NCBI GenBank assembly: GCA_022825665.1
Contig: JAJDWI010000056.1
Location: forward strand, 1 to 49,581
From: Candidatus Poribacteria bacterium
GTDB lineage: Bacteria; Poribacteria; WGA-4E; WGA-3G
Direction: 5' to 3'
DNA: 49,581 nt
The notes below the pieces were generated by a model. The model was not told where the DNA came from, did no database searches, and saw nothing but the letters and a program-made list of their open reading frames with translations. A program made the position numbers and the translations under genes. Positions 1,949 through 39,968 of the stretch are shown in pieces; within the stretch, counting starts at the first letter, position 1, and every line of letters begins with the position of its first letter.

Positions 1949-2231
1949 TTCTATCCCTCTCCAACACCTGTTATAATACTACCACTATGAAAAACAAAAA
2001 CCGCACTCAACCCACATTCTCAACAAAAACTGACATGCGTCACTCAAAAAATAAACACCCAAAAACCGATCACAACCAAGCAAATAAAAAACGCACAAAA
2101 ATGAAAATTTCAAAATTTTCGAAATACCCTATAAATCCAGTTCCATACTGGTACAACCCCAAATATCAAAACGCACTAATGTGCAAAAAACACCGGTTTT
2201 TAGTGCGTTTTTAGAAGGAGCAAAACCTATG
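1949..2231 (+). promoter_or_regulatory. Promoter and structured leader module, copy 1
   Basis: An extended -10, TG-T-TATAAT (1969-1977), is followed by a roughly 230-base leader, a strong ribosome binding site AGAAGGAG (2213-2220) and ATG at 2229. Box A (2086-2101, AAAAAACGCACAAAAA) and box B (2168-2179, AAAACGCACTAA) can both pair with box C (2200-2211, TTAGTGCGTTTT). Here B:C is the better match, 12 bp perfect, and ends in a T run just before the ribosome binding site, so it resembles an attenuator. CCAGT/ACTGG gives another small hairpin. The reading frame after the ATG stops after four codons (M-Y-L-T), so this copy drives nothing recognisable. The -35 (TTCTAT) is weaker than in the other two copies. 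Confidence 0.72.
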
Positions 2232-24081: not shown

Positions 24082-24966
24082 TTATTTTCTCCATGAGGTT
24101 TTGTGTCGCCACCCAACAGCGTCTTTGAGTTTATCGCAATTGAGAAAAGATTGATGTCCCTTAAGTGAACGGACTTTGGGAAGGAATTCAGGTTTAAAAC
24201 GTTCAACAAGTTCAAGTGAAGGTTCTAAAGCAGAGGTGTCATCTGCATTGAGAAAATAGACATCGTGCGGTGGTAGTTCTTCTGATTTTTCCATAATCAA
24301 ACGGTGCGCGCTTGCGACATCTTCACTACCAACCCAACACCACAACCAAGGTGTCCATCCGTTTGTGGGTTTAGCATTTTCTGCCATCTGCTTTCTACGT
24401 TCTTCAGGTGTAATACCAGCAGGACGTGTAATGTATGTTCGAATCCCGTAGGCGCGGGTATAACTTGCCAACAAGTCTTCGCCGCACCGTTTTGAGAAGC
24501 TATAGGAATCTTCTGGATAACAGGGATGCTCTTCATCAATGGGTAGATAATCTATAGGGATATGAGTTTTGCTTATTCGGAATCCGTGTCCTAATGCACA
24601 ATTACTACCGGACATCACCACCGTTTTCACATCTGCTTCAATTGCAGCTTGCATAAGATAGTAAGTTCCAAGCATATTCGTTTTGAATGTTGCATCAAAG
24701 GGAATCCCTTTCTCTTCAGCACTTGCACGCATATCTGGATGGTCAACAGGATTCGGTTGTGCACCGAGGTGTTGGATTGCATCAACACCCTCTACAGCAC
24801 GTTGACAGTCTTCAAAATTGTTAAGATCGCCTTGTATAAATGGTAAATTGTCGAATTCGTCAGGGGGTTGTCTTCTGGACATGAGAACGAGTGTGTGTTG
24901 TTCAGATAATTCTCGGATGACATACGCACCAAGTCTACCACTCGCACCAGTTATCAATACTTTCAT
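24082..24966 (-). CDS. NAD-dependent epimerase/dehydratase (extended SDR)
   Basis: A 294-residue extended short-chain dehydrogenase. VLITGASGRLGAYVIREL is the TGxxGxxG nucleotide site, GDLNNFEDCQRAVEGVDAIQ follows, VVMSGSN gives the Ser region and SYSFSK holds the catalytic Tyr-x-x-x-Lys. It would oxidise or epimerise a nucleotide sugar or free sugar acid. AAAGG lies six bases before the ATG. It is the first gene of an operon with the Gfo/Idh/MocA oxidoreductase (one-base gap) and sugar kinase. Confidence 0.9.
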   Translation of the reverse strand: MKVLITGASGRLGAYVIRELSEQHTLVLMSRRQPPDEFDNLPFIQGDLNNFEDCQRAVEGVDAIQHLGAQPNPVDHPDMRASAEEKGIPFDATFKTNMLGTYYLMQAAIEADVKTVVMSGSNCALGHGFRISKTHIPIDYLPIDEEHPCYPEDSYSFSKRCGEDLLASYTRAYGIRTYITRPAGITPEERRKQMAENAKPTNGWTPWLWCWVGSEDVASAHRLIMEKSEELPPHDVYFLNADDTSALEPSLELVERFKPEFLPKVRSLKGHQSFLNCDKLKDAVGWRHKTSWRK

Positions 24967-25014: not shown

Positions 25015-25152
25015 TTACGGTGTAAATGTATTGTTTTTTATCTTTTGTGGAATTATAGCATTGATACGATTTTTGTCAAGAGAGTGAAATCCGACCACAA
25101 GGTATTCAGCGAGTTGTTGTTCGTAGACTTGTAGTTTTTCTTGTAAATACAT
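25015..25152 (-). CDS. Small ORF behind the leader module, copy 2
   Basis: Forty-five codons starting at ATG 25152, eleven bases after the AGAAGGAG of the leader. The protein begins MYLQEKLQVYEQQLAEYLVV and ends ...NNTFTP. Its first residues resemble the start of the ORF behind leader copy 3 (MSLQEKHKQF), suggesting both are heads of one longer family that have lost their bodies. No known domain is recognised. It may be expressed, since promoter and ribosome binding site look intact. Confidence 0.45.
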   Translation of the reverse strand: MYLQEKLQVYEQQLAEYLVVGFHSLDKNRINAIIPQKIKNNTFTP

Positions 25153-25436
25153 CGGTTTTTTGCTCCTTCTAAAAACGTACCAAAAAAGGGTGTTTTTCGT
25201 TTCTGTGTACGTTTTGGTTTTTGGGGTTATACCAGTCTGGGACTGGGTTTATAGGTGTGTACGAAACTTTTTGAAATTTTCATTTTGGTACGTTTTTATT
25301 TGCTTGGTTTTGGTGGGTTTTTGGGGTGATGTTTTTTGGGTAACGGATGCCGGTTTTTGTTGTGAATGTGGGTGTAGTTGGTTTCTGTTTTTCATAGTGG
25401 TAGTATTATAACAGGTGTTGGCAGGGGTGTGAAGGG
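25150..25436 (-). promoter_or_regulatory. Promoter and structured leader module, copy 2
   Basis: On the minus strand, TTCACA (25433-25428), a 17-base spacer and TATAAT (25410-25405) with an upstream TG form a strong promoter. The leader follows, ending in AGAAGGAG and ATG at 25152. Box A (25283-25297), box B (25204-25215) and box C (25171-25187) all carry CGTAC/GTACG where copies 1 and 3 carry CGCAC/GTGCG. A and C pair over 15 perfect bases; B and C over nine. A CCAGTC/GACTGG hairpin is kept. Homology with copy 3 continues upstream to about 25530, where an AATCCTG-rich repeat lies. Confidence 0.75.
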
Positions 25437-25807
25437 GTTGTGAAGATTGGAACAATAAGTTTCATGTATGTTTGATGTGGTTTTCAGTTTTGTCTGAACC
25501 AGGATTGACAGGATTTCAGGATTTGCAGGATAAGAGAAGAGGTTTTTGGTGGGATATACGTATATGCATGTATATACGTGTATTTTATTGTCTGAATCGC
25601 TGAAGGCACGTAAACGTGGAAGACGCGGAAGGGTTTTATCAAGGGGTTGGTGTTTCTAAGACTCAGAGAACGCGTAATCTGTGATTCAGGCAGAAAGTAA
25701 TTGGGGTTAGAAACCTTACTGTAAAAAGAATACTACACGATAATTGAATGTCTTTGAATCTGATAGTGAATTATCATGCAGTATTATATCTTCAAAACAT
25801 GCATCTA
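25437..25807. other. Intergenic stretch with short repeats
   Basis: No gene is seen. At about 25490-25530 it holds AGGATT-type tandem words (GAACCAGGATTGACAGGATT and similar), matched in reverse at 36534-36590. An imperfect palindrome, ACGTATAT/ATATACGT, lies near 25560. Confidence 0.5.
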
Positions 25808-28190: not shown

Positions 28191-29243
28191 ATGAACTTAA
28201 TTGAAATTGCTGGGAAAAAATTAAAATTAGGTTCCAGAATGGCTCGGATGTTCGCGCTCTTCTTGGATGGCATGATTACATTTTGGACAGCTGTGATTGT
28301 GACTTCAATCTTTGGTGCTATGTTTCGTAATGCATTTGGAAGCGGATGGATACAGTTCATGCTGTATATGGGAACATGGAGTGCGGGTATGTTGTTTATG
28401 GATGGATTCAAGAACGGACAAGGACTTGGCAAACGTCTTTTATCTTTACAAGTTATCCGTATGAAAGATGGAAAGCCGTGTACCTTTAAAGACTCATTCA
28501 TTCGGCGTTTAACCTGCATATTTCAACCCTTTGATATGCTCTTTTCACTTGGCGACAAAAAGCAACGGATGGGAGATAAATTTGCGGAAACAGTTGTTGT
28601 GAAATATGAACCATATATTGAAAATGTTAATGTCGAAACAGAAGACCCAGTAAAGGTATTAGACAACGCAATTGACGAGATAACGAACAGGTTGGTGGAG
28701 GCAAGAGAAAAAGTAGATGCTTCTATTGGAATCGAAAAGCAGTTCCAGAACGCTTATGAAGGGGCACTTATACAGGCGGAAAGGTGTGAAGAACGCGCAA
28801 CTATAGCAATTAAGGCAGGACGCGAAGATTTAGCGAGAGAAGATATAGCACAACGAAATGAATATAAACAACTCGCAAGTCGTTATAAAACACAGTGGGA
28901 AGAACAAAAACAAATCGTAGCGGATCTTACAAACCTACTGGACACACTAAAAATGAAGACTGAAGAAGCAGAAAGAAAAAGAGATGTTCTCATTGCACAA
29001 CACAGAAATGTTGATGCACAAAAACATCTACAACAGACTTTGACAGAGGTTCAAGATGGCGCGGCTTTTGAAATACTCAATCAAATGGAACAAAATGTGA
29101 GTGAAGCCGCCACATTAGCAAAAGCAGCATCTGATGTTGATAGCGAACTTTCTGATACCAAGTTAAACCGTGAATTTGCTGACTATGCTGAAGAAGCATC
29201 TATTGACAACGACTTAGCAGAACTAAAAGCAAAATTACAGTAA
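28191..29243 (+). CDS. RDD membrane domain fused to PspA/Vipp1 (ESCRT-III-like) domain
   Basis: A 350-residue fusion. Residues 1-140 are an RDD domain: GSRMARMFALFLDGMI, two hydrophobic stretches (about 24-45 and 52-72), GQGLGKRLLSLQVIRMKDG and QRMGDKFAETVVV. Residues 151-350 match PspA/Vipp1 from its EDPxK site onward: EDPVKVLDNAIDEITNRLVE, CEERATIAIKAGREDLARE, then a long coiled coil and an end DLAELKAKLQ like the PspA C-terminus. PspA normally starts with an amphipathic membrane-binding helix; here the RDD domain takes its place. AAGGA precedes the ATG. PspA proteins remodel and repair membranes, so a membrane-anchored ESCRT-III-like scaffold is inferred. A paralogue follows 128 bases later. 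Confidence 0.85.
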   Translation: MNLIEIAGKKLKLGSRMARMFALFLDGMITFWTAVIVTSIFGAMFRNAFGSGWIQFMLYMGTWSAGMLFMDGFKNGQGLGKRLLSLQVIRMKDGKPCTFKDSFIRRLTCIFQPFDMLFSLGDKKQRMGDKFAETVVVKYEPYIENVNVETEDPVKVLDNAIDEITNRLVEAREKVDASIGIEKQFQNAYEGALIQAERCEERATIAIKAGREDLAREDIAQRNEYKQLASRYKTQWEEQKQIVADLTNLLDTLKMKTEEAERKRDVLIAQHRNVDAQKHLQQTLTEVQDGAAFEILNQMEQNVSEAATLAKAASDVDSELSDTKLNREFADYAEEASIDNDLAELKAKLQ

Positions 29244-29371: not shown

Positions 29372-30478
29372 ATGTCAATAGTTAGAATTGCTGGAGAGAA
29401 ATTCAAATTAGCATCTCGTTGGGCAAGGTTAGGTGCGTTCTTGCTGGACATCGGTTTCTTGGTGTTCTGTCAAGGTGTGTTATGGCTAATAGGACTATTA
29501 CAATCTGTAATGTTCACTGATTTTGACGATTATATGTATTTCGGTGATGACCCCGCAGTAGTTACGTTCTTTGTCCTTAGCATTATACTGTGGAATTACG
29601 GTTATTTTCTTATGGATGGACGTGCTGATGGAGGAGGATTCGGAAAGAGATTACTATCTCTTAAAATAGTTCGTTTGAAGGATGGAGAACAAGCAAACTA
29701 TAAAGATTCGTTTGTTCGTCGTTTTTCCGCCATATTTCAACCTATTGACTGGCTTTTCGCTTTAGGTAAAGGCAGACAGCGAATGGGTGATAAACTTGCC
29801 AAAACTGTGGTGGTTAAATTAGACACGCCACAAGTTGAAATTGTAACCGAAGAAGAAGAAACGGACGATAAAGAAACAGATCTCGAAAAAGTATTAGAGG
29901 ATGTAATTCTTGAAATTACAAACCGTTTCTCAGAAGCAAAGCAGAAGGTTGACGCATCAATTGGAATAGAGAAACAATTTCAGAATGCACACGACGGGGC
30001 TATAGCACAAGCAGAAAAATGTGAAGAACGTGCCATCATTTCACTTAAGGCAGGACGTGAAGATTTGGCAAAGGAAGATCTCGCACAACGAAATGAATAT
30101 AGACTAATTGCAAACCGATATAAAGAACAGTGGGAAGAACAGAAAAGGACAGTCGAACACCTAACTACACTTCTTGACACACTCCAGCAAAAAACACAGC
30201 AGACACAGCGAGAAAGGGATGTTGTAATCGCACAACACAGAAATGTTGATGCACAAGAACATTTGCAACAAACATTGTCAGAACTGCAAGACAATAAGGC
30301 TTTTGAGATGCTCAAGAAAATGGGGCAGAACGTTACTGAAGCTGCAGCACTCGCAAAAGCTGCATCAGAAGTAGATGTCGAATTCCAGGATGTAGAACTA
30401 AATCGTGAATTTGCAAATTACGCAGAGGATGAAGCAATTAACAAAGACCTTGCCGAATTAAAGGAGACTCTAAAATAG
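29372..30478 (+). CDS. RDD-PspA fusion, tandem paralogue
   Basis: A 368-residue paralogue of the upstream gene with the same order of domains. The RDD part (1-150) has ASRWARLGAFLLDIGFLVF, a longer middle loop with many acidic residues (about 49-61), GGFGKRLLSLKIVRLKDG and QRMGDKLAKTVVV. After an acidic linker (EEEETDDKETD), residues about 170-368 form the PspA body: LEKVLEDVILEITNRF, CEERAIISLKAGREDLAKE and DLAELKETLK. The two proteins agree more in the PspA half than in the RDD half, suggesting they copolymerise while the membrane parts differ. No clear ribosome binding site is seen. It may share a transcript with the first copy. Confidence 0.85.
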   Translation: MSIVRIAGEKFKLASRWARLGAFLLDIGFLVFCQGVLWLIGLLQSVMFTDFDDYMYFGDDPAVVTFFVLSIILWNYGYFLMDGRADGGGFGKRLLSLKIVRLKDGEQANYKDSFVRRFSAIFQPIDWLFALGKGRQRMGDKLAKTVVVKLDTPQVEIVTEEEETDDKETDLEKVLEDVILEITNRFSEAKQKVDASIGIEKQFQNAHDGAIAQAEKCEERAIISLKAGREDLAKEDLAQRNEYRLIANRYKEQWEEQKRTVEHLTTLLDTLQQKTQQTQRERDVVIAQHRNVDAQEHLQQTLSELQDNKAFEMLKKMGQNVTEAAALAKAASEVDVEFQDVELNREFANYAEDEAINKDLAELKETLK

Positions 30479-36539: not shown

Positions 36540-36927
36540 ATCCTGAAAATCCTATAATCCTGAAAATCCTGGTTCAAAAAACCAAAAATCCGAAACATAC
36601 ATGAAACTTATTGGATATATATTGTTCCAATTCCCACAACCCTTTCACACCCGCCCCAACCCCTGTTATAATACTACCACTATGAAACACAAAAAACGCA
36701 CACAACACATAAAAACAACAAAAACCGGCACCCGTCACCCAAAAAACATCCACCAAAAAACGACCATAACCGAGCAAATAAAAAACGCACAAAAAATGAA
36801 AAACTCAAAATTTTCAAAAACCCCTATAAACCCAGTTCCAGACTGGTATAACCCCAAATATCAAAACGCACAAATGTGCAAAAAACACCCGTTTTTTGTG
36901 CGTTTTTAGAAGGAGCAAAAACCGATG
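36540..36927 (+). promoter_or_regulatory. Promoter and structured leader module, copy 3
   Basis: TTCACA (36644-36649), a 17-base spacer and TG-T-TATAAT (36664-36672) form a strong promoter. The leader ends with AGAAGGAG and ATG at 36925. Box A (36780-36796), box B (36863-36874) and box C (36892-36907) are AAAAACGCACAAAAAA, AAAACGCACAAA and TTTTTTGTGCGTTTTT; A:C pairs over 16 perfect bases and B:C over 12, so the two pairings exclude each other. The CCAGT/ACTGG hairpin is kept. Upstream, AATCCTG words and CATACATGAAACTTATTG match the flank of copy 2. Confidence 0.78.
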
Positions 36928-37259: not shown

Positions 37260-39968
37260 ATGTCTACACAGATAGAAAATCGTCTTACTCAATTCGTTCC
37301 TAACCCTAATATTTCCCAACAAGTTTTACAGGAGCAGTTATCCTCTTTCATAAAAGCTGAACGCGAACTATTAAAAGAAAGTATAGTGTCAGGTGAAAGT
37401 GGATTTTCTGCTTGTGCTACTCACACATTAATATGGGATGCAGTGATTCGAAAGGTTTACGAAGTAGCTGCTTTTCAGATCCAAACTGAATACATGAAAC
37501 AAGTTGAAGAACTACTTAAGATACCTGATATTGAATCAAGTGAATTACTATCAGATTTGCCTGAGGAATGGACTCCTGATGTCGCACTTTACGGAGTTGG
37601 GAGTTATGGAAGACATGAACTCTGCTACTTTTCAGATGTTGATGTCGTGTATACGTCTTCTGTTGATCTTGAGGACGTGTATGATGAGGGCACACTGGAA
37701 TTGATACGTTGGTTCTATGACTTCTTTGATAGTCTACACTCTGTTATTCCAGGCTTTGAGTTTAGTTTCATTTACCGTCCAATGTCAGATATAGCAAAAT
37801 GGAACTATCAAGATATGACCGCTCTTATTGATATGCGCTTTATTGCTGGCGATTCTTCACTGACAGAACAGTTCCGAAAAGCTGTATATAACGAGAAATC
37901 CGATATCTCACTTGTATTAGATTTGCTTCAATCTAAAGCAGATGCATTCAAAGCATCTGAAGATACGATTTATCTCAATCAACCAGATATTAAAACTGGT
38001 CGTGGAGGACTAAGGACACTTCAGTATGCACTCTGGATGTGTGGACTACCCGAATTTATACCTATTCTTGAACTCTATGAACGTTATGATGATGATCAGT
38101 TGAAACCTTCGCTTGACTTTATGTTCAAGGTGAGAAATTTACTCCATGTATTTGCCGATGCACCTCACGATTCACTTTCCTATCATCCTGAACAGGAGGA
38201 TATACTTCAGACAAAAATCGCTACTACTATGGGTTATTCCGATAAATCCGACGAATGCAGATATGAATTTATGGCAGACTATTATGCCAGAGCAAAATAT
38301 CTACACTTTAAAGCAGAATTGTTAATTAGAAAGTTTCTTGCAAATGGGATACCAGTTTCCGACGTTCTTGGTGTGAGAACAGACATACTCTATTGCATTG
38401 ATAACAACTTCGGTGAACTTGATACAGATGAACTCTTTAAACTGTTCACCTATTTTCAACAATACGATTTTGAGATTGATCCATCACTTGCGACCTTTAT
38501 CTTTGCTTATGTAGATGCATTCGACTGGAAATATTTTAAAAATAGAATGGCGGAACTTATCAATACATCCGGTAATGTAGAAAAAAGTTTAACTCGTCTA
38601 CACAGACTCGGAATATTATCTCGTTTAGGTGAGGGTGGCGAACGTTTTGAAAAAGCAATGATGACCCGTAGCGAAAGAAGTCTTGATCCCTATACCGTGG
38701 GCAAACACACATTGGTTGCAATAGGATATCTTGATGAAATCCGACAGACTGAACCCAGCAGTCCTTTCGCAGGACCACGCCTTGGTCAACCGATGATACC
38801 TACTGCTAATTCTGAGTTAGAGGAGCTGAATACGGCTTTCCGATCACTTTCTGATACCGCACCGCTCTACATGGCTATTTTTCTCCATGATATTGATAAA
38901 CCAGATCCAGCTCATCCTCAAACTGGGGCAGAAAAAGCAAAACGAATTGCACCAGAATTTGGGTTTAATCCACAACAAACAGATGAGATATGTTTTCTGA
39001 TTCGAGAGCATCTCACAATGATTAATTTAACGCGGTATCACCAGTGGGATGAAAGCACCATCACTGAATTCTGTGAGAAAGTAAATTCACTGGAACGTCT
39101 AACAGCACTCTATTTGTTAACCTATTGTGATTCAAAAGCGAACGGATCGCAAAACTTTAACAATCTCGTAAAACACAATCTCAAGCGGTTGTATGAAGTT
39201 GTACGAGTACGGTTCGTTGGACAGGAGGAAACACAGTGGGGAGTTCACGCACCACCCGAAGAATATCAACAATTTCTACATCAGATGCCGGTTACCTATA
39301 GGATTGGAGTAGCACCAGAGGAAATCTCTATGCACATGAAAATGATCTCTCAAGCTGAAACTACCTCTGCAGAGAATCAAGATCCAAATGCGGGGGCGGC
39401 AATTCTCCAATTTGTTGATAAACCTGGTTTTACTGAATTACATCTGTGTGGTCATAGACGTATTGGGAAGTTGCACACTGTAAGTGGTCTGTTTTTTGCA
39501 AACAATATTGATGTCCGCGACGCGCGTGTCTATACAAAACAGGATACTAATGTTGAGTTGGAAATATATCGGCTTGTTCATCAATCACCACATCATACTG
39601 CTGAACCATTGCCACTTGATGAGGACTTAAAACGAAACCTTGATTTTGATATACGAAGTCTAATGGCTAAAGAGATAACACTTGAACAGATATTTGAAAA
39701 GCATTATATAGATCCAACAGGGACTTGGCGAGTTGATGATGTTACTGTTGAGCCTGCAAGAAATTATACTGAAATCGTTGTGACTGGTGAAGAAAAGATG
39801 GGATTTCTACACTATTTCAGCGGAATTTTGGCAAAATTGGAGTTAAACGTTGAGATGTGCAAATGTTCAGGTTTAGGTGGACAAGCAATTGATCGGTTCT
39901 ATGTACAAACTGTACCTGATCCTCAAAAAGTGCGTGATAGAATTTTGGCTGAGTTATCTACGGAATAA
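37260..39968 (+). CDS. glnD: PII uridylyltransferase/uridylyl-removing enzyme GlnD
   Basis: A 902-residue bifunctional nitrogen sensor. GVGSYGRHELCYFSDVDVVY (about 112-131) is the nucleotidyltransferase site, DIKTGRGGLRTLQYALW (about 243) is the GlnD/GlnE linker motif, KHTLVA and FLHDIDKPDP (about 480 and 545) are the HD phosphohydrolase, and two ACT domains (about 720-790 and 835-900) close the protein. It would uridylylate PII at low glutamine and deuridylylate it at high glutamine. The length is usual for GlnD. No glnB, amtB or glnA is nearby. The HD residues HD-x-D-K-P-D differ slightly from the common HD-x-x-K-G, so hydrolase activity should be treated with care. Confidence 0.9.
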   Translation: MSTQIENRLTQFVPNPNISQQVLQEQLSSFIKAERELLKESIVSGESGFSACATHTLIWDAVIRKVYEVAAFQIQTEYMKQVEELLKIPDIESSELLSDLPEEWTPDVALYGVGSYGRHELCYFSDVDVVYTSSVDLEDVYDEGTLELIRWFYDFFDSLHSVIPGFEFSFIYRPMSDIAKWNYQDMTALIDMRFIAGDSSLTEQFRKAVYNEKSDISLVLDLLQSKADAFKASEDTIYLNQPDIKTGRGGLRTLQYALWMCGLPEFIPILELYERYDDDQLKPSLDFMFKVRNLLHVFADAPHDSLSYHPEQEDILQTKIATTMGYSDKSDECRYEFMADYYARAKYLHFKAELLIRKFLANGIPVSDVLGVRTDILYCIDNNFGELDTDELFKLFTYFQQYDFEIDPSLATFIFAYVDAFDWKYFKNRMAELINTSGNVEKSLTRLHRLGILSRLGEGGERFEKAMMTRSERSLDPYTVGKHTLVAIGYLDEIRQTEPSSPFAGPRLGQPMIPTANSELEELNTAFRSLSDTAPLYMAIFLHDIDKPDPAHPQTGAEKAKRIAPEFGFNPQQTDEICFLIREHLTMINLTRYHQWDESTITEFCEKVNSLERLTALYLLTYCDSKANGSQNFNNLVKHNLKRLYEVVRVRFVGQEETQWGVHAPPEEYQQFLHQMPVTYRIGVAPEEISMHMKMISQAETTSAENQDPNAGAAILQFVDKPGFTELHLCGHRRIGKLHTVSGLFFANNIDVRDARVYTKQDTNVELEIYRLVHQSPHHTAEPLPLDEDLKRNLDFDIRSLMAKEITLEQIFEKHYIDPTGTWRVDDVTVEPARNYTEIVVTGEEKMGFLHYFSGILAKLELNVEMCKCSGLGGQAIDRFYVQTVPDPQKVRDRILAELSTE

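Follow-up and report, generated by a model that had tools for sequence, protein, structure and literature searches.

What makes three short boxes of one leader sequence differ together from copy to copy? The question is raised by the window analysed here (the whole stretch of 49,581 nucleotides from a Candidatus Poribacteria genome), in which three copies of a leader carry two direct boxes, A and B, and an inverted box C. The original prediction had read a change from CGCAC to CGTAC in copy 2 as a single substitution appearing simultaneously in all three boxes, which preserved the pairings of C with both A and B and pointed either to pairings that matter or to a sequence-specific partner. We found the three leaders and their boxes where that prediction had placed them, read on the leader strand. 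Copies 1 and 3 are indeed CGCAC/CGCAC/GTGCG and copy 2 is of the CGTAC type, its match being limited to the 5-nt core. The features of the window are as follows.

1967..2231 (+): copy 1 of the promoter-leader, CGCAC subfamily
2087-2101, 2172-2176 and 2198-2212 (+): box A, core of box B and box C of copy 1
2213-2220 and 2229-2231 (+): Shine-Dalgarno sequence and ATG of copy 1
24082..24966 (-): NAD-dependent epimerase/dehydratase gene downstream of copy 2 (Pfam PF01370)
25015..25152 (-): stub ORF of copy 2, 45 aa, MYLQEKLQVYEQQLAEYL..., opening with the start of the parent gene and continuing into host sequence
25052..25079 (-): native promoter of the epimerase gene, TTGACA-16-TATAAT (12/12), kept across the genus whether or not a leader is present
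25150..25436 (-): copy 2 of the promoter-leader, CGTAC subfamily (BLAST matches in its own genome, 57-copy alignment)
25163..25170 (-): Shine-Dalgarno sequence of copy 2, AGAAGGAG (sequence; kept in the copies)
25171..25185 (-): box C of copy 2, TTTTGGTACGTTTTT, inverted relative to A and B and adjoining the Shine-Dalgarno sequence on its 5' side
25205..25215 (-): box B of copy 2, AAAACGTACAC (sequence, alignment)
25257..25263 (-): fourth box-like site of copy 2, CGTACAC, between A and B (plus strand GTGTACG)
25283..25297 (-): box A of copy 2, AAAAACGTACCAAAA (sequence, alignment from column 168)
25405..25433 (-): leader promoter of copy 2, TTCACA-17-TATAAT with TG before the -10 (consensus scan 11/12)
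36641..36927 (+): copy 3, CGCAC subfamily, upstream of a GlnD-like gene at 37260
36781-36795, 36867-36871 and 36893-36907 (+): box A, core of box B and box C of copy 3
36908-36915 and 36925-36927 (+): Shine-Dalgarno sequence and ATG of copy 3

In copy 2, box B (CGTACAC) and box C (GGTACG) are mismatched at the sixth base, so that C pairs better with A; the predicted fold of this leader (z = -4.3) indeed pairs A with C, and copy 2 is thus not the cleanest case of a double pairing. The fourth box-like site, an addition to the three boxes of the original prediction, follows the box type only partly.

A dispersed family of promoter-leader cassettes

Leaders of this kind are present in at least 57, and about 57-60, copies in the genome that contains the window (G000), with a unit of ~290 nt; the copy counts were taken from lists of matches and are lower bounds. 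Using copy 2 as a BLAST query against its own genome (4.53 Mb in 170 contigs) returned at least 40 matches with 81-100% identity, and motifs from the promoter end and from the Shine-Dalgarno end were found at 56 and 49 places, respectively. Within the window a 25-nt motif of the Shine-Dalgarno side and a 21-nt motif of the stem occur three times each, where shuffled sequences lead one to expect none. Rfam gave no match in the window at gathering score.

The alignment of 57 copies from G000 revealed a uniform anatomy. Read in the direction of the downstream gene, a copy consists of a promoter, a leader of ~240 nt that holds boxes A and B and the inverted box C, the sequence AGAAGGAG, an ATG and a truncated gene. 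The TATAAT block is kept in essentially all copies, as is across copies the Shine-Dalgarno sequence that directly follows box C on its 3' side. The truncated gene starts with M-(Y/S)-LQEKHKQFAVKSYAKFMT and ends after a few to ~35 codons, the stub ORFs often being just a few codons long. The two ends of the cassette are unequal, the promoter end being shared by the copies and the gene end being variable; for copy 2 the junction between the stub and the native upstream sequence is visible against a leader-free site in another genome, G010.

Many copies contain a 75-codon frame that runs from an ATG beside the -10 to the Shine-Dalgarno sequence with few in-frame stops (25395-25150, minus strand, in copy 2). 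As a coding upstream ORF it was rejected for the solo copies, in which third codon positions show no excess of substitutions and gaps of one base are frequent; the intact gene described below has a frame of 83 codons in front of it. Just upstream of nearly all copies lie reiterated short motifs, ATCCTGAAAATCCTGGTTCAGACAA and AAAACTGAAAACT, which for copy 2 are found at 25490-25530 of the window. In the third species examined (G002), a foreign repeat (TTCGTAGGTCGGAGCGAGCAAAGCGACCT...) separates the promoter from box A in many of the copies L233-L259, which implies that the promoter and box segments act as separable modules.

The parent gene

An intact version of the truncated gene is located elsewhere in G000 (L111:1501-2208, corresponding to G000:C98:35132-35836) and encodes a protein of 235 aa. 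Its leader is related to the solo leaders but diverged, with a box set of its own (CCGTACC / GGTACGG) that is unlike every solo subfamily. In G010 an intact gene (L139) is preceded by a promoter of the lineage to which the solo leaders belong. Relatives of the parent gene were detected in 39 of 97 related genomes, all of them in two genera of one family. The members inspected (L111, L136-L164) are undescribed Poribacterial orphans of ~220-280 aa, solitary in varied chromosomal surroundings and in tandem once (L140). A search for a cognate protein for each box type found none.

TerS, the small subunit of phage terminase, is a DNA-binding family. The first ~38 residues of the parent protein align with DUF2280 (PF10045), a family of phage terminase small subunits, in hhalign (E 5.5e-5, probability 66%), and among the Pfam matches of 12 family members to DUF2280, all at E<=1, the best had an E-value of 2.4e-6. 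The curated cut-off was not reached, the L111 protein scoring 20.0 bits against 24 and over residues 3-36 only, and no protein passed it in a family search among 59 genomes. The other ~200 residues remained unmatched to any known relative. As to the neighbourhood, DUF2280 proteins in phage records, retrieved with an approximate consensus that recovered real phage proteins of up to 73% identity, lie just upstream of and adjoining the terminase large subunit; in the ORF lists of the surroundings of the Poribacterial genes no recurrent neighbour of that sort was seen. A profile search of PDB gave no match, and single-sequence structure prediction yielded a poor model (mean pLDDT 52). A viral origin was rejected, since no relative was found in viral contigs or phage records.

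The boxes form matched sets around a hairpin

To compare the boxes we used the 5-nt cores of 96 copies from G000 and its sister species (G014). All three cores agree in 88 of the 96 copies, B and C in 94, A and B in 89 and A and C in 89, against ~34 matches expected if one box is shuffled among copies; as the rows are related by descent, these are agreement counts and not probabilities. Canonical pairs occupy 96% of the cells for both B-C and A-C, compared with 24-59% when the boxes are slid against each other (27-59% for B-C) and, for B-C, 88% with shuffled rows. Four main matched types exist in the two sister genomes (CGTAC, CGCAC, CGAAC and GATAC), and G002 has further matched sets (GTTACC, GTTACCG, GATACAG and GATACC). 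Matched sets also stand in front of intact copies of the parent gene, so that at least nine distinct sets are known across the genus and before full-length genes. The concerted variation that had been proposed from three copies thus extends genome-wide and across species, with subfamilies of matched variants, and a pattern of boxes varying independently was not seen in the genome-wide copies.

The two pairings are unequal, B-C being the stricter one by the core counts and A-C the looser. The sixth base can pair in 83% of copies for B-C and in 61% for A-C; in six copies the odd box is A and no other, and in five copies A is of the CGAAC type while B and C are of the CGTAC type. The B-C stem sits just before the Shine-Dalgarno sequence, has a mean length of 12.0 bp (6.0 in shuffles) and reaches into A/T tracts; the mean z of the leader fold is -4.9. 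In nearly all full-length genes, too, the Shine-Dalgarno sequence is closely preceded by an inverted repeat of 5-14 bp, whose arms vary in sequence from lineage to lineage and whose loop spans 4 to ~35 nt; a matching box A is found in only about half of these relatives. The covariation points to a pairing that matters.

Alternatively, the boxes might be half-sites at which a sequence-specific repressor, or else the parent protein itself, binds the DNA, their matching then reflecting recognition and not RNA pairing. The arrangement of A and B as direct repeats with C inverted, the fourth site that partly tracks the type, the extra box copies that full-length relatives carry in several arrangements and the TerS-like N-terminus of the parent protein would all suit such an operator. 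We consider it possible but doubtful, as the spacing of the arms varies from 4 to ~35 nt, which favours a stem-loop over a dimer operator of fixed geometry, box C is always tied to the Shine-Dalgarno sequence ~220 nt from the promoter, and the stems extend into the A/T tracts.

A conserved, covarying stem beside the ribosome-binding site is what an autogenous RNA operator would present, and this is what the leaders display. Such operators are known from T4 gene 43, where a hairpin upstream of the initiation codon is bound by the gene product (PMC3014915), and from the leaders of ribosomal protein S15, which act as autogenous translational operators (PMC4137082). As in these systems, the hairpin lies immediately 5' of the Shine-Dalgarno sequence of a gene for a putative nucleic-acid-binding protein; unlike in them, the box sequence changes freely yet stays matched, copies stand before other genes and binding is putative. 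With a mean unpaired value of 0.57 the Shine-Dalgarno sequence lies outside the stem, which means that translation is not necessarily blocked by the hairpin itself, and a scan found no intrinsic terminator at the hairpin; an operator model consequently requires a bound protein. The full-length leaders of L148, L151 and L153 share a distal box region (AAAATGTTACACTTT... and then a T-run) with hardly any nucleotide differences although the surrounding reading frame differs, which argues for conservation at the nucleotide level.

Box types change mostly as whole sets

The notion of one substitution arising in three places of copy 2 is not supported. CGTAC is the commonest type, with 30 of 57 copies in G000 and 23 of 40 in G014, which makes copy 2 typical and places copies 1 and 3 in a smaller CGCAC subfamily, and orthologous sites swap whole sets. 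At 31 orthologous sites of G000 and G014, with flanks 90-98% identical, the type of box B was kept at 19 (12.2 expected by chance) and changed at 12, mostly as a complete set. CGAAC became CGCAC as a unit at L014/L216, L028/L223 and L072/L215, CGTAC became CGCAC at L017/L221 and GATAC became CGCAC at L100/L217. Mixed sets exist as well: at L019/L225 box A of the G000 copy is CGAAC, and L206 is a mosaic with a half-exchanged set and one box out of step. Leader types also differ between species at the genes downstream of copies 2 and 3: G002 has a GTTACCG-type leader at the same place before the epimerase gene, for which G010 has no leader, and G014 has a GTTACC-type leader before the GlnD-like gene where G000 has the CGCAC type.

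In three switched pairs (L014/L216, L072/L215 and L028/L223) the 5' leader still matches its ortholog best, but for the box segment the ortholog ranks only 13-31, that segment being closest to other copies. This is the pattern predicted by block exchange between copies. Most simply, the concerted change of the boxes would be a block replacement among copies, for which we infer gene conversion from the patterns of sequence similarity; repeated re-insertion at the same site would leave a similar pattern. The boxes are found nearly always as a matched set, which is swapped between copies as a block, and this points to a family of mobile regulatory leaders that had not been described.

Pure shared ancestry, in which a few subfamilies happened to be matched and spread by duplication with no present constraint on pairing, would account for the limitation to four main types in two sister genomes and for the excess of orthologous sites that kept their type, and related rows inflate the agreement counts. 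We regard it as unlikely nonetheless: with at least nine matched sets, some of them before full-length genes, matching recurs; the sixth base is matched more often in B-C than in A-C; and the stems have twice the length found in shuffles.

Position relative to downstream genes

The copies are strongly co-oriented with their neighbours, facing the next gene in 52 of the 56 cases with a scored neighbour in G000 (p=1e-11), in 34 of 36 in G014, whose sites are mostly orthologous to those of G000 and hence not independent, and in 10 of 10 in G002. Among 30 downstream proteins scanned with Pfam, 28 matched a wide range of families, and no shared function was seen. The epimerase and GlnD-like genes, the two examined, keep their native promoters immediately in front of them whether or not a species has the leader. 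There the cassette supplements the native promoter and does not replace it, and the copies may be regulatory bystanders.

Putative mobile promoters, homologous promoter regions before unrelated genes, were reportedly described by Matus-Garcia, Nijveen and van Passel in 2012 (cited in PMC9208149). The leaders resemble them in being repeated, co-oriented, before many unrelated genes. They might, then, be ordinary mobile promoters selected for driving the downstream gene, with an incidental hairpin, and their orientation and strong promoter consensus would be explained. This is improbable in our judgement, because the conserved native promoters remain, the downstream genes have no function in common and a hairpin whose sequence changes would not have been retained if it were incidental; moreover, the 290-nt unit differs from mobile promoters in carrying a structured leader, a Shine-Dalgarno sequence and the start of the parent gene, and its box sets switch as blocks.

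Movement by a Y1 (RAYT/IS200) transposase with the hairpins as substrates is very hard to sustain: like REPIN/RAYT populations, which are non-autonomous, vertically persisting dispersed repeats able to form hairpins (PMC8049555), the leaders are dispersed, non-autonomous and hairpin-bearing, and G000 has two Y1 genes, but the draft genomes G002 (at least ~40 leader matches) and G010, both of which have the leaders, gave no Y1 match, and the long promoter-leader-Shine-Dalgarno unit, with one fixed and one variable end, has a different anatomy from a pair of REPs.

A proposed mechanism

The reading we prefer, with a probability of roughly 55% as a whole, combines three parts. The feature at 25150..25436 is one copy of a non-autonomous, dispersed promoter-leader cassette, with its source in the beginning of a Poribacterial orphan gene whose product has a DUF2280-like N-terminus; its box segment would be replaced from time to time by block exchange; and its hairpin would be an RNA operator bound by the parent protein. 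According to this model, recombination or gene conversion between copies replaces the box segment, and mismatched sets may be purged by selection that acts on the B-C stem and more weakly on A-C. The hairpin would act at the RNA level, C pairing with B or alternatively with the distal A beside the ribosome-binding site, and could serve as the address of a binding protein, for which the product of the parent gene is the likeliest candidate. If that product binds the hairpin, the parent gene would be autogenously regulated and the scattered copies would respond in trans.

A bolder extension, which we put forward as a speculation that is probably too far-reaching, takes the hypervariable, self-matched RNA hairpin as the address of an orphan TerS-like protein, with types exchanged as sets, in a regulon that can be rewired. 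If true, addressed leaders would have spread before scores of genes with a code that differs from species to species, and the parent protein family is named here as the candidate recogniser. The ~57-60 leaders, in which pairing elements change together and yet stay matched at sites comparable between sister species, constitute a natural experiment on the evolution of regulatory pairings, in which block exchange can be set against compensatory mutation.

A second repeat in the window involves two adjacent genes, apparently tandem paralogues, which have a 300-nt stretch in common (28643-28942 and 29878-30177) with 70% identity.
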